NCBI GenBank assembly: GCA_018660265.1
Contig: JABJKS010000001.1
Span: 1 to 64,000 of the forward strand
DNA: 64,000 bases
Reading direction: 5' to 3'
From: Rhodospirillaceae bacterium
GTDB taxonomy: Bacteria; Pseudomonadota; Alphaproteobacteria; GCA-2731375
Each line of letters begins with the position of its first letter. Within the stretch, counting starts at the first letter, position 1. Below the pieces are notes generated by a model. The model was not told where the DNA came from. It saw only the letters and a program-made list of their open reading frames with translations, and did no database searches. The translations under genes were made by a program, and so were the position numbers. Positions 4,176-22,653 of the stretch are shown one piece after another.

Positions 4176-7100
4176 ATGGGTATTGATATGGGGTTTCGTG
4201 TCAGGTTCTGTCGTGGTGGTTTTGGCCTAGGGCTCATGCTCATCACACTTATGGTTGGCGGCCCGGTCCAGGCAGAATTGCCCAAGATTGGCGTGCCCGC
4301 CGCCGTGCGCCCGGATGCTCATGGTACCCCCCCAGGGTTGGAGACCCATATTCTGCAGATTGGTGTGGACCTGCATGCCAATGAGGCGATTGTTACGGGA
4401 CCTACCGGTCAGACCCATCTGTTGTTCCTGGATGGGTCTACAATTTCCATCGGCCCGAATTCTGAACTGCGCCTGGACAAGTTCGTTTATGACACGGAGA
4501 CAAAAAAGGGCGAACTGGTCGCCTCCGTTTCCAAAGGGGTATTTCGATTTGTCGGCGGACGGATATCAAAAACCCGTCCCGTATTATTCAAGGCCCCGAA
4601 CGCCACCATTGGTATTCGCGGTGGTGTGGCCATTATGGAGGTCAACAGCCCCGAACAGATCGCCCGGGCCCAGGCCCAGGGGCGGACCCTGCCGCCGGTT
4701 ACCGCGACCATGCTGTTTGGTGACGCGGTTACCATGCAGACACCAACGCAGCTGCAGAGGATAACCAAGCCGGGCTTTCAAATGTCGGCCACGGGTCGGG
4801 GCGGTGTCACCCCACCGAAGAAAACCAGCCAAGCCGAACTGGTCAAGGTTCTCTCCACCCTGGAAGATCCGCCGCCCCCGCCACCGCCCGGTGATGGCGA
4901 GCAGACAGCGCAACAACTGGGCGAAATTGCACCAGCCGCAGGCGGCCCCACTGTCAGCAATGAAGATGTTGCTGCCAGCCAAATGGCGGCCCTGGGGTCG
5001 CAAAACGATCCAGCTGCCGTAGGCGGTGGGACACCTGGTGCCCCGCCGCCGCCGGGACCAGGTGCGACGAATGATGGTACGGGCGGCGGTGGGGAGCTCA
5101 CCGCGGAAATCAGTCAAACCTCCCAGCAAACACCGGTTCCACCCATTGGGACATTGGTTGCCACCCCGAACGGCGATGGGCTATTGATCGAAACAGCCGC
5201 CGACGGCACCCTGGTTGGCGTGGTTTCGCAGGCGTCGGACGATGCTGTGGTTCCTGAGGTCGTTTATAGCTTGACCGAGAACGCAGATGGCCGTTTTGCT
5301 ATTGATCCCACTACTGGCGAGATCACCGTGCTCGATGGTGGATTGCTTGATTTTGAGGCGGAGATATCGCACGAGATTTCCGTCCTGGCGACCAGCACCG
5401 ACGGTACCACGTTGGCCGGGTCATTCCTTATTTCGTTGTTTGATGACACGACGGAATTTCAGGTCACGCCGATTGTCGATAGCAACCCCAGTACCAACGG
5501 TACGGTCGAAAATGCGCCACAAGGAACAATGGTCGGCGTGATGACCGTGGCCAGGGATGATGATGCCACGGACAGTGTCAGTTTTACTTTGCTCGACAAT
5601 GCAGAGGGACGGTTTTCTGTTGATCCCGTGACGGGGGTCGTCTCTGTAGCCGATAGCGGCCTTTTGGATTTCGAGAATAGCGAGACCTACAGCATCACCG
5701 TGCTGGCAACCAGCACAGACGGTACTACGTCAGAGGCGAGTTTCACCATTGCCTTAACTGACGATAATAGGGAATTCGACGTCACGCCCGTGTCCGACAG
5801 TGACGCTGCGATCAATCTGATCTCGGAAAGTGCGCCTAACACCACCCCGGTGATGATTACCGGCGCTGCCTCTGATGGAGATGGCAGCGATACGATCACC
5901 TATAGCCTAAGTCTCAATCCCGGTAATGCCTTTTCTATCGACCCCAATACCGGTGTGGTGACCGTGAATGATGCCAGTGTACTGGACTTCGAATCCGGGA
6001 CATCCCTCACCATTGAAATAACGGCGGCCAGCACGGACGGCACTGAACAGGCGGAATCTTTCATCGTCACCTTGAGTGACGATAATACGGAATTCGACGT
6101 CACGCCCGTGTCCGACAGTGACGCTGCGATCAATCTGATCCCGGAAAGTGCGCCTAACACCACCCCGGTGATGATTACCGGTGCGGCTTCTGATGGCGAT
6201 GGTAGCGATACGATTACATATAGCCTAACCGTTAATCCCGGAGGCGTATTTGCGATCGATCCTGTTACCGGCGTGGTTACGGTGGCGGATGCCAGTTTGT
6301 TGGATTTTGAGACGGATGCCTCACTGACTATTGAGATTACCGCGACCAGTTCGGATGACACGCAAGCGGCTGAATCTTTCATCGTCACCTTGAGCGATGC
6401 TAATGAGTTTTCGATCGGCCCGGTCAGTGATACCGAAGTTGGTTTGAATGTGGTTGATGATCGTAGTCCCGATGGGACCCTGTCGGGAGTTACCGCCTTA
6501 GCCACAGATCTAGACGGTACGGATAACACCACCTACAGCCTGATCGATGATTCCAATGGCCGATACTCCATTGATCCGACCACGGGCGTGATTACCGTTC
6601 TAGATGCTTCGAAAATCGATTTCACGGATACCACCGGAACAGATGGCTATTCTCACGACGTCATTGTGCGGGCGATAAGCGATGATGGCTCGGAATCCGA
6701 AGCCAGTTTCAATATTCGAGTCCGTTCGACACAATTTTCCGGACGCAGCAAACGTGGGACGTTGTCTGCCACTGGCGGCGATGACGGCTCGCCGACAGAT
6801 AACGTGTCATCAAATACGGTATTTTTGCAGTTCGGCAATGTTGTATTTCCAACGCCGGGCGTCGGCAGTGGTTTTTATCAACTTCTCCGGCAGGCGTCTC
6901 CCGGTACCTTTACCGTTACTTCGCCAAACCTTTCGCCCTATGGCGATGTTACGGGGGACGGAATATTTTTTGGTGATCGTGATTTTGTTCTCTACGAGTT
7001 GACGGAGCAGGCTAATCCGACCAGCGGTTTGTTTATGTTTGTTGGCATTCCAACCCAGAATTTGGAATTTCCCACCGCCGGCTTCTCGTCCTTCACACCA

Positions 7101-8471
7101 CGGGATGATTTCCTCCTCGGTAGCGATATTCCCTTTGTCAGACCATCCTCGGGCGGCAGTGTAAGCGATCATATTGTCAGCGACATCTATGTCTCATGGG
7201 ATACCACGGGCAGCGGCGGCACCAATCCCCATCCCGTGTTTGCCCAGGCCAGCTTTGCCTTGGGCCCCAATCAACAGGGCGGCTTGGTTGTCGCGATGGG
7301 ACGTATTCTGCCCGACGGTGACAACCCTTATTTCATGACGGGTGGGGTCAGTGGCAGTTTCAATCCAAGTAATGGCAGCGCCGTCGGTGCAAATCTAATC
7401 AAGGGCAGTATTGCGTCCAGTGATGATGGCAATGGCTTTGATTTTTTCGGCAATGGTTCACCAAAGTACGGCGTAATTGAAGCGGCTGCGGTTGACGGCG
7501 GTGATGTCGTTCAAAGTAGAGGCTTGGCAGAAAGAACCAGTGGCAGTGCGGCAAGCCGGTCGGATACAGCCTATTTTCCCAACGTTGTTATGATAGGTGG
7601 GCCTAACGGCACAATCAGTACGACCCGAACGTCACGAACCCTGAACGGATTTGTCTCCGGTGGTCTACAAATAGATGGTTCATCCGGCTTTTTCCCCGCC
7701 TACAGCACCGATGCGGCTGCTGCGACCGCGACGGGTATCGTGATCACCACCTCTGCTGAAGAGGGGCAATTGTCTGCAACGATCAACGTGATCGATGATA
7801 CCAATGATTTTACGCGGCAATTTCTTTTAGGTGGTGTCGACGGCACCACCAGCAGTGCCTTTATCAATGACGATTTGTTCGTGGCGCGGGAGGCCGATGG
7901 CAGCACTACGGATACCCTTGCCTTGGCGACCTCCGGCATGGTGCCATTGCTCGCAGCTCACATTCCAGCCGGTGTCAATCTCTGCGCCTGCAGCTTTATG
8001 AAGTGGGGTCACTGGGCCGGTGACTTCGAAATGGTCGGCGTGGCTACCGAGCGTTATCATCTGGCCCATTGGGTCGCGGGCGAATTGGCATCCGTCGTTG
8101 ACGTCCCCACAGGCGGAACGGCAACCTTTACGGGGCATGCAATAGGGACCATAGCCGATAGCTCCATCCGGCAGTTTGTCGCGAACATGTCTGCGACATA
8201 TGATTTCGCTGACCGCTTTGGCCAGGTAACAATAAGCAATCTGGAGAGTAAGACGTTTGTATTTCCTATCTCCGCAGGGGCGATGACTGCAAATGTCTTC
8301 AGTGGCAATTTGGATGTGGAAAGCAGTGCGCCGGGGTTTACAGGTGATACGCGCGGTGCCTTCTATAACAATGGCGGCGTTAAAGCCGATGGCATTGGTG
8401 GAGACTTCGTGATTAATGAAAGCGCCACGCCCTTCGCCAGCATGGCTGGTGTCTATGTGGGTGAGCGGTAG
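4176..8471 (+). CDS. Giant exported surface protein: FecR domain, five cadherin-like repeats, TbpB-like barrel
   Basis: About 1431 aa from the ATG at 4176; a TTG at 4134 would add 14 residues. A signal peptide ends near 'GGPVQA-ELP' (about 33). A FecR domain follows (about 55-155), ending in the typical 'APNATIGIRGGVAIMEV'. Next come a low-complexity Pro/Gly-rich linker with a run of seven prolines, and about five cadherin-like units of roughly 106 aa, recognised by 'DxDGSDxITYSL...FxIDPxTGVVTVxDxSxLDFE'. A long beta-rich region follows. The final 150-190 residues match the C-lobe style of TbpB-like lipoproteins: 'TFTGHAIG', 'MSATYDFADRFGQVTISN', 'RGAFYNNGG' and the terminal 'ASMAGVYVGER'. 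No lipobox is seen. A role as surface adhesin or ligand-binding protein is inferred. No sigma factor or TonB receptor gene is adjacent, so a FecR anti-sigma role is unlikely. Confidence 0.82.
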   Translation: MGIDMGFRVRFCRGGFGLGLMLITLMVGGPVQAELPKIGVPAAVRPDAHGTPPGLETHILQIGVDLHANEAIVTGPTGQTHLLFLDGSTISIGPNSELRLDKFVYDTETKKGELVASVSKGVFRFVGGRISKTRPVLFKAPNATIGIRGGVAIMEVNSPEQIARAQAQGRTLPPVTATMLFGDAVTMQTPTQLQRITKPGFQMSATGRGGVTPPKKTSQAELVKVLSTLEDPPPPPPPGDGEQTAQQLGEIAPAAGGPTVSNEDVAASQMAALGSQNDPAAVGGGTPGAPPPPGPGATNDGTGGGGELTAEISQTSQQTPVPPIGTLVATPNGDGLLIETAADGTLVGVVSQASDDAVVPEVVYSLTENADGRFAIDPTTGEITVLDGGLLDFEAEISHEISVLATSTDGTTLAGSFLISLFDDTTEFQVTPIVDSNPSTNGTVENAPQGTMVGVMTVARDDDATDSVSFTLLDNAEGRFSVDPVTGVVSVADSGLLDFENSETYSITVLATSTDGTTSEASFTIALTDDNREFDVTPVSDSDAAINLISESAPNTTPVMITGAASDGDGSDTITYSLSLNPGNAFSIDPNTGVVTVNDASVLDFESGTSLTIEITAASTDGTEQAESFIVTLSDDNTEFDVTPVSDSDAAINLIPESAPNTTPVMITGAASDGDGSDTITYSLTVNPGGVFAIDPVTGVVTVADASLLDFETDASLTIEITATSSDDTQAAESFIVTLSDANEFSIGPVSDTEVGLNVVDDRSPDGTLSGVTALATDLDGTDNTTYSLIDDSNGRYSIDPTTGVITVLDASKIDFTDTTGTDGYSHDVIVRAISDDGSESEASFNIRVRSTQFSGRSKRGTLSATGGDDGSPTDNVSSNTVFLQFGNVVFPTPGVGSGFYQLLRQASPGTFTVTSPNLSPYGDVTGDGIFFGDRDFVLYELTEQANPTSGLFMFVGIPTQNLEFPTAGFSSFTPRDDFLLGSDIPFVRPSSGGSVSDHIVSDIYVSWDTTGSGGTNPHPVFAQASFALGPNQQGGLVVAMGRILPDGDNPYFMTGGVSGSFNPSNGSAVGANLIKGSIASSDDGNGFDFFGNGSPKYGVIEAAAVDGGDVVQSRGLAERTSGSAASRSDTAYFPNVVMIGGPNGTISTTRTSRTLNGFVSGGLQIDGSSGFFPAYSTDAAAATATGIVITTSAEEGQLSATINVIDDTNDFTRQFLLGGVDGTTSSAFINDDLFVAREADGSTTDTLALATSGMVPLLAAHIPAGVNLCACSFMKWGHWAGDFEMVGVATERYHLAHWVAGELASVVDVPTGGTATFTGHAIGTIADSSIRQFVANMSATYDFADRFGQVTISNLESKTFVFPISAGAMTANVFSGNLDVESSAPGFTGDTRGAFYNNGGVKADGIGGDFVINESATPFASMAGVYVGER
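5771..5862 (+). repeat. Intragenic direct repeat, copy 1 (cadherin-like unit)
   Basis: Starts ggaattcgacgtcacgcccg and recurs 318 bp (106 codons) downstream with about one difference in 90 bases. It encodes the boundary of two cadherin-like units of the FecR-domain protein. Near identity at DNA level, beyond protein conservation, indicates recent unit duplication or gene conversion. Confidence 0.9.
6089..6180 (+). repeat. Intragenic direct repeat, copy 2 (cadherin-like unit)
   Basis: Second copy of the 92-bp segment at 5771-5862, same orientation and reading frame. A Ser codon (tcg) is changed to Pro (ccg) in 'LI(S/P)ESAPNTTPVM'. Such repeats can expand or contract the number of cadherin-like units by recombination. 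Confidence 0.9.
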
Positions 8472-21241: not shown

Positions 21242-22522
21242 TTAGTTGGGTAATTTCGCCTCGGTGATGATGGCACCCTGCAGGCGCGCGCCATCAATGG
21301 CGGAACCGGACAGGTCTGCGCCGCGTAAATTGGCACCGTTAAAATTGCTGCCTGACAAAATTGCACCGCACAACAGGGTCGCGGCAAGATTGCAGCGGCT
21401 AAGATTGGCATCTGTCAGATTGGCTGGCCAGGAACGGCCCGTGGTTTTGCCGTCCCGCCCCTTAATATCCGCCGCTGATATGTCGGCTGCCTCCAAGCTC
21501 GCCTCGGTTAGGTCCGCACCGGTGAGATTTATGCCGGTCATTTCCGCCCGGTCCAGTTTGCCTTTATAGATATTGGTGCCAGATAGATCCGCCATATTCA
21601 GAGCAGAACCAATAAACCGCGCACCGGTCAAGGTCGCGCCGATCAGGGAGGCACCGGAAAGGTTGATGCCGGAGAAATCAACGTTGTCCAGTTCCGCACC
21701 GTCCAGTACCGCGCGTCTGCCTTCGGCACCAAAGCTGGCCATCCATTTCTCATGATCGCGAATGGTATCACGCAGATCATCGGGCAGGCTATCGACGGAA
21801 ATGACGATCTCTGCACCGGTCAGGTCAGCGCCCGATAGGTCGACACCTTCCATGGATGTATTGCTTAATTTTACACCGCGCATGTTGGTGTCTTTGACTT
21901 TAATTCCGGTCAGCTTCGCAGACCCTAAATTCGCGCCTTCGAGGCTCGCACCTGTCAGGTCCGCGCCGCTTAAATCCGCGCCATCAAGCATGGAGCCACT
22001 AAGGTCCGCATCCGTTAGTATCGCGTTCGTTAAAATGGCACCGGATAGATCGGTTTGCGTCAGGACGGAGTTTGACAGTCGCGCGCCGGACAGGTTTGCC
22101 CCTTTGAGGGAGCCGCGTTCCAGCTCCAAGGAGCTCATTTCTGCATTAGCGACCTTGGTGCCGCCCTCTTCCGCCGCCGTCATCAAAGTGCCGTCGCGCA
22201 GGTCGGCACCGAACAGGTTGACGTCTGTTAAATCCGCGCCGCGTAACTGCGCCCCGCGCAGGTCGCAATTGGACAAATCCGCGCCCCGTAAATCCGTGTT
22301 CCGCAAATCGGCGGCAAACAGGTCGGCTTTGTGAAAATTCACGCCGCACAGCATCGCCTCGGCCAGCTTGGCACCGGTCAATTTGGCCTCTGATAAATTG
22401 GCGTTGCCGAAATCCATACGCTCCAGTTCTTGCAGGGAAAAATTTGCCCGTGAACCGCCGGGATGGCCGTCCAGCCAACGTTTATGACGCGCTAAGGTGA
22501 GCTGAATTTCTTGTGTTATCAT
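21242..22522 (-). CDS. Large cytoplasmic pentapeptide-repeat protein
   Basis: 426 aa from the ATG at 22522; an upstream ATG at 22585 would add 21 residues. After 'ITQEIQLTLARHKRWLDGHPGG' come about 40 A(D/N)LxG pentapeptides in two blocks (about 35-240 and 285-425). A helical spacer separates them, containing 'IRDHEKWMASFGAEGRRAVLDG', which repeats the theme of the N-terminus. So the protein is a duplicated module: short helix 'H(E/K)xW' plus beta-helix. No signal peptide is seen. The function is unknown; such proteins can be scaffolds or DNA mimics. Confidence 0.85.
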   Translation of the reverse strand: MITQEIQLTLARHKRWLDGHPGGSRANFSLQELERMDFGNANLSEAKLTGAKLAEAMLCGVNFHKADLFAADLRNTDLRGADLSNCDLRGAQLRGADLTDVNLFGADLRDGTLMTAAEEGGTKVANAEMSSLELERGSLKGANLSGARLSNSVLTQTDLSGAILTNAILTDADLSGSMLDGADLSGADLTGASLEGANLGSAKLTGIKVKDTNMRGVKLSNTSMEGVDLSGADLTGAEIVISVDSLPDDLRDTIRDHEKWMASFGAEGRRAVLDGAELDNVDFSGINLSGASLIGATLTGARFIGSALNMADLSGTNIYKGKLDRAEMTGINLTGADLTEASLEAADISAADIKGRDGKTTGRSWPANLTDANLSRCNLAATLLCGAILSGSNFNGANLRGADLSGSAIDGARLQGAIITEAKLPN

Positions 22523-22653
22523 TATTATTTTAATCCGACTGACCCGGCCATAATTGGCACAGAGAATAGATGCGGGAAATGCCATCGGAATGATGCGCCG
22601 ATGAAGTAAAGATTAGCTTAAGAATTTACCCGGGAGCGCATCTGTTTTCGCAG

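Follow-up and report, generated by a model that had tools for sequence, protein, structure and literature searches.

Introduction

How a large bacterial protein that carries a FecR domain near its N-terminus, a cadherin stalk in its middle and a TbpB-like region at its C-terminus leaves the cell, and what such a chain might do once outside, is the question raised by a gene of a Rhodospirillaceae bacterium. The gene lies in the window, by which we mean the whole 64,000-nucleotide stretch of DNA analysed (positions 1 to 64,000 of contig JABJKS010000001.1), and its source, probably a marine bacterium, is represented by an assembly of 5.55 Mb in 121 contigs. The architecture is undescribed in the literature searched (FecR combined with Slam, T11SS, DUF560, transferrin-binding or CHASE2), a body of literature that mostly excluded subscription journals. 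Neither FecR, cadherin nor CHASE2 occurs in the main text of the 2025 survey of T11SS cargo (PMC12282271), and neither FecR nor cadherin in the main text of PMC8406197.

Results

Domain organization of the window protein

A preliminary description of the window had read FecR, cadherin repeats and a TbpB-like C-terminus in one exported chain, and all three parts were recovered in a single protein of 1431 residues (Table 1), by Pfam and, for the C-terminus, by predicted structure. The profile searches proposed there for each domain placed FecR and Cadherin over their cut-offs and left TbpB_B_D below its own (19.4 of 26 bits). The whole-genome FecR search returned the identical place in the protein, and the PF00028 score qualifies the stalk as a cadherin-repeat region, with five repeat cores of the type xxIDPxTG at residues 374, 480, 586, 692 and 797. 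The N-terminus displays a hydrophobic stretch and PVQA, as read from the sequence and from a rough hydropathy script, which set the signal peptide at the wrong location in some family rows.

The absence of a lipobox from the protein (pattern script) and of a sigma factor or TonB receptor from its vicinity was likewise borne out. The ten neighbouring ORFs, one of which matched no Pfam family, include no sigma factor, TonB receptor or transducer, or outer-membrane protein by Pfam, and the remaining part of the window, in which ORFs of at least 330 aa between 20 and 64 kb were judged by eye, revealed no sigma or TonB genes. The window protein shares with FecR anti-sigma and sensor proteins a FecR domain that passes the PF04773 cut-off, but here the domain comes after a putative signal peptide, as part of a large chain that would be exported. 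With no ECF sigma factor or TonB transducer found among its neighbours, the suggestion that FecR might signal an anti-sigma function is unsupported, and this reading was dropped. Two pentapeptide-repeat proteins are also encoded in the window, at 1571-2284 (Pfam) and 21242-22585 (by eye).

Table 1. Coordinates in the window of the gene and of the parts of its product.
Feature	Position	Strand	Basis
Whole gene, 1431 aa	4176..8471	+	Uninterrupted open frame
Putative signal peptide, residues ~1-33, PVQA end, without lipobox	4176..4274	+	Sequence and rough hydropathy script
FecR domain, residues 71-156	4386..4643	+	PF04773, 31.7 bits (cut-off 24)
Pro/Gly-rich linker, residues ~216-336	4821..5183	+	Sequence, boundaries by eye
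PAAG motif within linker, residues 253-256	4932..4943	+	Sequence; weak lead
Five cadherin repeats (stalk), residues ~337-851	5184..6728	+	PF00028, 138.2 bits (cut-off 28.8), five stretches
Predicted first TbpB-like lobe, residues 852-1154	6729..7637	+	TbpB at Z 11.7 (separate model mc28b1f87560c)
Predicted second TbpB-like lobe (C-lobe), residues 1155-1431	7638..8468	+	Z 14.2 to 5kkx (residues 304-580 of model m33719c40d0f9)
Cys-x-Cys of the CxC....WG motif before the last barrel, residues 1270-1272	7983..7991	+	Alignment A2
Last TbpB-type barrel, residues 1310-1429	8103..8462	+	PF01298, 19.4 bits, below cut-off 26

Predicted structure of the C-terminal region

Sequence alone leaves the nature of the C-terminus unsettled, because TbpB_B_D scores under its cut-off in the window protein and at the three places that it matches in the own-genome search (24.7, 20.6 and 14.1 bits), and because at an equally loose E-value it also matches 2 of 14 control genomes. 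The NCBIfam model slam_lipo (NF041636) matches the same end of the window protein far under its cut-off (23 of 80 bits), and a PDB sequence search with the TbpB-like alignment returned only NHBA (Gna2132; E 0.002-0.004) plus chance rows.

Structure prediction, which the preliminary description had named as a test capable of refuting it, yielded a TbpB-like fold. The AlphaFold2 model of residues 852-1431 (m33719c40d0f9, built from 20 sequences; pLDDT 80.3, pTM 0.85) finds a whole TbpB as its top Foldseek match (3ve1, E 1.9e-11); its C-terminal half aligns to the TbpB C-lobe in 5kkx with Z 14.2 over 198 residues (rmsd 4.0), and the model also reaches Z 13.2 to the C-terminal domain of NHBA. Since one domain alone can fill a Foldseek list, the first half was predicted separately (mc28b1f87560c, 19 sequences, AlphaFold2, pLDDT 80.2). 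Plain Foldseek gave a weaker result for this half, with three chains at E <=0.001, all of them TbpB (best 1.8e-4), and in a second-look alignment the top 22 entries were TbpB or LbpB, with a best Z of 11.7 over 205-210 residues and the lobe aligned mostly against the C-lobe of TbpB. These models indicate that the 580-residue C-terminus is made up of two TbpB-like handle-barrel lobes; the fold proposed in the preliminary description is thus retained, while the extent given there, the last 190 residues, takes in the last barrel only. When TbpB chains are aligned across both lobes simultaneously the rmsd rises to 16-19, and the lobe arrangement may therefore be different, flexible or mispredicted.

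The Cys-x-Cys before the last barrel is invariant in all 20 rows of the full-length alignment A2, and a looser CxC motif is present in 38 of 42 family members. A disulfide or a metal site are candidate roles for this motif. The predicted TbpB-like fold carries no proof of TbpB's ligand, and nothing points to transferrin.

Paralogues and the wider family

The genome that contains the window holds 13 FecR matches, and the six long ones constitute a single family with a common plan (the window copy on contig C80 and paralogues on C116, C54, C84, C97 and C47). Identity to the C116 copy ranges from 33 to 44 percent, and some residues are invariant, both in FecR and in the vicinity of a Cys-x-Cys ... 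Trp-Gly motif that precedes the last barrel; the C47 paralogue, from which most of the first lobe is missing, is excluded from alignment A5. Two patterns from the FecR region, scanned against contigs of GTDB genomes, produced 35 loci, and 14 of these (L025-L037, L039) hold near full-length relatives. Alignment A2 accordingly comprises 20 hand-chosen full-length rows, the six paralogues and 14 of the 35 loci, the loci left out being mainly matches to the FecR part, cut, or broken (L038). Twelve of the 14 relatives are labelled as Alphaproteobacteria or members of that class, one as 'Proteobacteria' and one as 'Planctomycetota'; the closest named relatives of the window protein are Alphaproteobacteria, and isolate names suggest a sea-water origin for several relatives. 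The member labelled Planctomycetota (L039, 2817-5897) is a full-length protein encoded in a metagenome-assembled genome, and transfer or misbinning are both possible.

The wider alignment A6 has 42 rows, some of them cut at the N-terminus, and omits L038 and L085, both fragments, while including L116. Among 42 family members, Pfam at E 0.01 matches FecR in 39, TbpB_B_D in seven and FHBP_C in four; Cadherin is matched only in the window copy, and Big_9, Cadherin_5 and Cadherin_4 in one member each, which implies that other repeat stalks exist. The lipobox pattern is present in one of the 42. FecR and the TbpB-like region therefore form the fixed plan of the family, and of the combination that the preliminary description had considered unusual it is the cadherin stalk that is odd. 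The cadherin stretch has no match in ten other genomes of the genus except one (G293), in which a family copy broken by frame or stop (L157, G293:C15) carries one cadherin-like repeat at a contig end. A tblastn search of plasmids with the window protein gave 14 records, and the matches listed, five in number, cover mainly the cadherin part. The member encoded by plasmid pAMI5 of Paracoccus aminophilus (L161, 6255-8222) carries a collagen-like PTGPTGP spacer where the window protein has its cadherin stalk (Pfam Collagen 20.7 bits, below the cut-off of 27.2).

A divergent Slam-like protein in the same genome

The preliminary description had regarded the export route as not evident and had proposed a genome search for a Slam partner. 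With the Pfam model SlipAM this search returned zero matches up to E 1, a result that does not prove absence because the 14 control genomes were also without any match. In the neighbourhoods of relatives there is a recurrent upstream gene, coding for a protein of ~450 aa that combines a barrel with TPR repeats, and an alignment of ten such partner proteins taken from the neighbours of family genes (A3) located a Slam-like protein at G000:C13:38165-39499 with E 3.5e-150. An export candidate is hence at hand in the genome itself, and 13 of 22 genomes have its relatives next to family genes.

Several comparisons connect this protein with Slam. Profiles of the C13 protein type (5 sequences) and of eight SlipAM-matching proteins (96-121 bits) align with an hhalign probability of 99.7 over 368 columns, spanning TPR and barrel; A3 against the same eight proteins gives a probability of 100 over 382 columns, and the unrelated control A2 gives 0.1. 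Two relatives, L100 (52.3 bits) and L101 (24.1), pass the PF04575 cut-off of 22. The C13 protein itself shows no match to Pfam SlipAM up to E 0.1 and scores 14.5 bits against TPR_Slam (cut-off 35.2), and the Slam-like alignment, searched against PDB sequences, returned 19 sequences that are TPR-type by name. By profile comparison the C13 protein is a divergent relative of Slam, of the outer-membrane type with TPR repeats and a barrel. Its gene is not beside family genes, and two genomes of the same genus (G281, G187) share its neighbours by eye.

Co-occurrence and gene adjacency

The A3 profile has matches in 77 of 289 sampled Alphaproteobacteria, and the Slam-like type is found in all 22 genomes with a TbpB-like region, versus 55 of the 267 others. 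Excluding the 10 genomes that supplied A3 leaves 12 of 12 (Fisher p 1.6e-8, uncorrected for relatedness; four of the 12 belong to one taxonomic family and others among them share genus or family with A3 sources). These counts refer to at most five candidates scored per genome in the Slam-like search and to at most four in the TbpB-like search, which in the own genome recovered four of the six paralogues and missed the window copy. Pfam SlipAM alone, which matches 31 of the 289 genomes, shows no enrichment with the family (3/22 vs 28/267, p 0.43); the three genomes in which it accompanies a TbpB-like region at E <=0.001 (G083 and G095, and G280 with a match below the cut-off) have the SlipAM match in the neighbouring gene.

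In 13 of the 22 genomes (G027, G029, G056, G065, G079, G080, G083, G095, G128, G178, G205, G247 and G280) a family gene and the Slam-like gene are immediate neighbours on one strand, and the two genes are apart in nine, the own genome included. A script-based count gives 12 adjacent loci because G080, which the profile search matches, falls under the script threshold.

FecR and CHASE2 genes near Slam-like genes

Of 59 Slam-like hits with E no higher than 1e-35, 58 were analysed as loci, the G227:C58 fragment being left out. A FecR gene lies within 2.5 kb in 40 of the 58 (strand not required) and a CHASE2 gene within 4 kb in 24, with both present in 22 and neither in 16. At 28 of the 40 loci the FecR protein has no TbpB-like profile match, although the genome search does match the one from G080; some of the 28 have little beyond FecR (~290-350 aa) and others carry different C-terminal parts, indicating that the TbpB-like barrel is not the sole conserved partner. 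Azospirillum thermophilum, for instance, has a Slam-like gene together with a 298-aa FecR protein. In the p1 plasmid of Shinella sp. H4-D48 and in pAMI5 of Paracoccus aminophilus, genes for the Slam-like protein, for the protein with FecR and TbpB-like parts and for a CHASE2 cyclase stand one after another on one strand. The outer-membrane protein NsrA of S. meliloti was considered as a possible relative of the Slam-like protein; one Slam-like protein, searched against plasmids, hit two records, neither of them from S. meliloti.

The Slam-like locus of the own genome has neither FecR nor CHASE2 neighbours. This genome has five CHASE2 matches, and among the three with listed places the one on C47 and a small FecR gene are ~1.6 kb apart. 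A lipoprotein-like ORF lies close to these two genes in the stretch analysed there (L023, G000:C47, 2134-5404), which contains no Slam-like gene.

Discussion

What has been observed is a domain plan, a family of six paralogues, a Slam-like protein encoded by the same genome and, in relatives, co-occurrence and adjacency of the two genes. In the best supported reading, which we consider probable, the window protein is carried as cargo by a divergent secretion route of the Slam type (type 11) and is composed of a FecR base, a variable stalk and a TbpB-like head. The chain would be exported by Sec, as its putative signal peptide suggests; the Slam-like outer-membrane protein with TPR repeats (G000:C13) would then recognize the C-terminal TbpB-like barrel, and by homology the head would cross the outer membrane. 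The two-lobed head may serve as a binding module, presumably exposed at or beyond the surface on a stalk of five cadherin repeats in the window copy and of other spacers in relatives, with FecR as the likely base near the N-terminus. As the protein has no lipid anchor, either FecR holds it in the envelope or it is released. FecR is the best conserved and least understood part of the family, an envelope base or a signalling relay.

The protein can be compared with several known systems. With TbpB and LbpB it shares, by predicted structure, two lobes of a handle and a barrel each, but it has FecR and a cadherin stalk ahead of the lobes and no TonB receptor nearby, its first lobe aligns best to the TbpB C-lobe, and the rmsd over both lobes points to an arrangement that differs or is unsure; failing both the PF01298 cut-off and the lipoprotein signal, it was not assigned to TbpB. 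Leptospira LipL45 and Lsa33 resemble it in having a FecR-type domain in an exported protein, and give weak NCBIfam matches over the FecR part only, with the window protein far under the family cut-offs. We know of no cadherin stalk or TbpB-like head in these two proteins. The T11SS cargo surveyed in the available text of PMC12282271 joins pedestal and effector parts to a barrel at the C-terminus, some of it with several handle-barrel pairs (surface proteins of Sphingomonas and Psychrobacter). The window protein agrees with such cargo in its C-terminal TbpB-type eight-stranded barrel, seen in the predicted structure with a sequence profile below cut-off, in its variable N-terminal part and in the Slam-like gene neighbouring its relatives; it differs in its FecR base and cadherin stalk, and in a Slam-like partner that is divergent and often adjoins CHASE2 cyclases. 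The same text draws all verified Slam/T11SS secretins from the animal-associated cluster 1 and describes cargo with TbpB-type barrels as rare beside the marine cluster 3.

The wider FecR/CHASE2 module is the main argument against a simple pairing of translocon and barrel cargo, and it raises a rival in which the conserved pair is the Slam-like protein with FecR, a periplasmic FecR relays to the CHASE2 cyclase and the TbpB-like head is an exchangeable sensing end. The association of FecR, TPR and CHASE2 as such is already published: the available text of PMC9239204 describes Campylobacterota clusters of a CHASE2 cyclase, a phosphodiesterase, a FecR-domain outer-membrane protein and a TPR protein, which, compared by description, share FecR, TPR and CHASE2-cyclase proteins with the loci reported here, but in that text neither a Slam-like protein nor a TbpB-like head is shown, and the own Slam-like locus has no such cluster. 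Available parts of other sources report a LysM-FecR protein that neighbours a CHASE2 histidine kinase (PMC5192318) and S. meliloti CHASE2 cyclases that respond to a protein signal via the outer-membrane protein NsrA (PMC7529298, PMC13001267). Together with the FecR and CHASE2 genes beside Slam-like loci (40 and 24 of 58, both at 22) and the gene rows of the Shinella and Paracoccus plasmids, these reports favour a relay; however, neither FecR nor CHASE2 adjoins the own Slam-like locus, no CHASE2 gene is seen by eye at the six paralogue loci, CHASE2 is common anyway (136 of 289 genomes) and 34 of the 58 Slam-like loci lack it within 4 kb. We thus regard the relay as a tentative and somewhat unlikely alternative, one that is compatible with Slam-type export of the head, so that it may hold alongside the Slam-cargo reading. 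A fuller version, in which the Slam-like protein exports the head and a periplasmic FecR base switches the CHASE2 cyclase, turning surface capture into a cyclic-nucleotide signal, seems unlikely; the switching would belong to the complete version of the module, and in the FecR proteins the exported end would be exchangeable, being a TbpB-like head on a cadherin stalk or a collagen-like one, a different C-terminal part, or absent altogether.

Two further readings were considered. The chain could stay in the periplasm, its TbpB-like fold serving an unrelated purpose and the Slam-like protein being an ordinary barrel neighbour, as would suit a putative signal peptide without lipobox and the periplasmic FecR of the Fec system described in the available text of PMC5498481. 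The strict co-occurrence and frequent adjacency with the Slam-like protein make this quite improbable. A cadherin stalk and a two-lobed TbpB-like head are, moreover, typical of surface proteins, which also counts against a periplasmic location. Very improbable, in turn, is a LapA-like arrangement in which FecR would serve for retention and the protein would be cut free by a LapG-type peptidase at PAAG, a motif that we take to resemble LapG cleavage sites. The genome does have a LapG-type peptidase (PF06035, 65.5 bits), and paralogues C54, C84 and C97 match the LapA retention model NF033682 at 17.6-21.4 bits (cut-off 50), but the window protein does not match this model at E 0.1, carries a putative signal peptide rather than signs of type I export, and displays no RTX end. 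PAAG follows FecR in only four of 43 members (the window copy, L012, L026 and L035), on which ground LapG cleavage was dropped as a general mechanism; nor was the window protein classed as a LapA-type adhesin, the cut-off of the retention module not being reached. PAAG also occurs in two truncated relatives (L024, L044) and in the broken L157. Another FecR protein of the same genome (L099, 8650-11442, on G000:C103, truncated where the contig ends) has RTX-like repeats, PAAG behind FecR and a neighbour that is TolC-type by eye, and resembles a LapA-type adhesin; the genome has one LapG-type peptidase.

If the Slam-cargo reading is correct, environmental Alphaproteobacteria would possess a large, multi-copy and mostly non-lipidated type of cargo with its own Slam lineage, and two-lobed TbpB-like heads would not be tied to host iron proteins. 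The recurrent neighbourhood of Slam-like, FecR and CHASE2 genes would link a surface-export route to cyclic-nucleotide signalling, and its occurrence in the named isolates Paracoccus aminophilus and Shinella sp. H4-D48 makes it open to testing. A capture design known from pathogens may hence also serve free-living bacteria.
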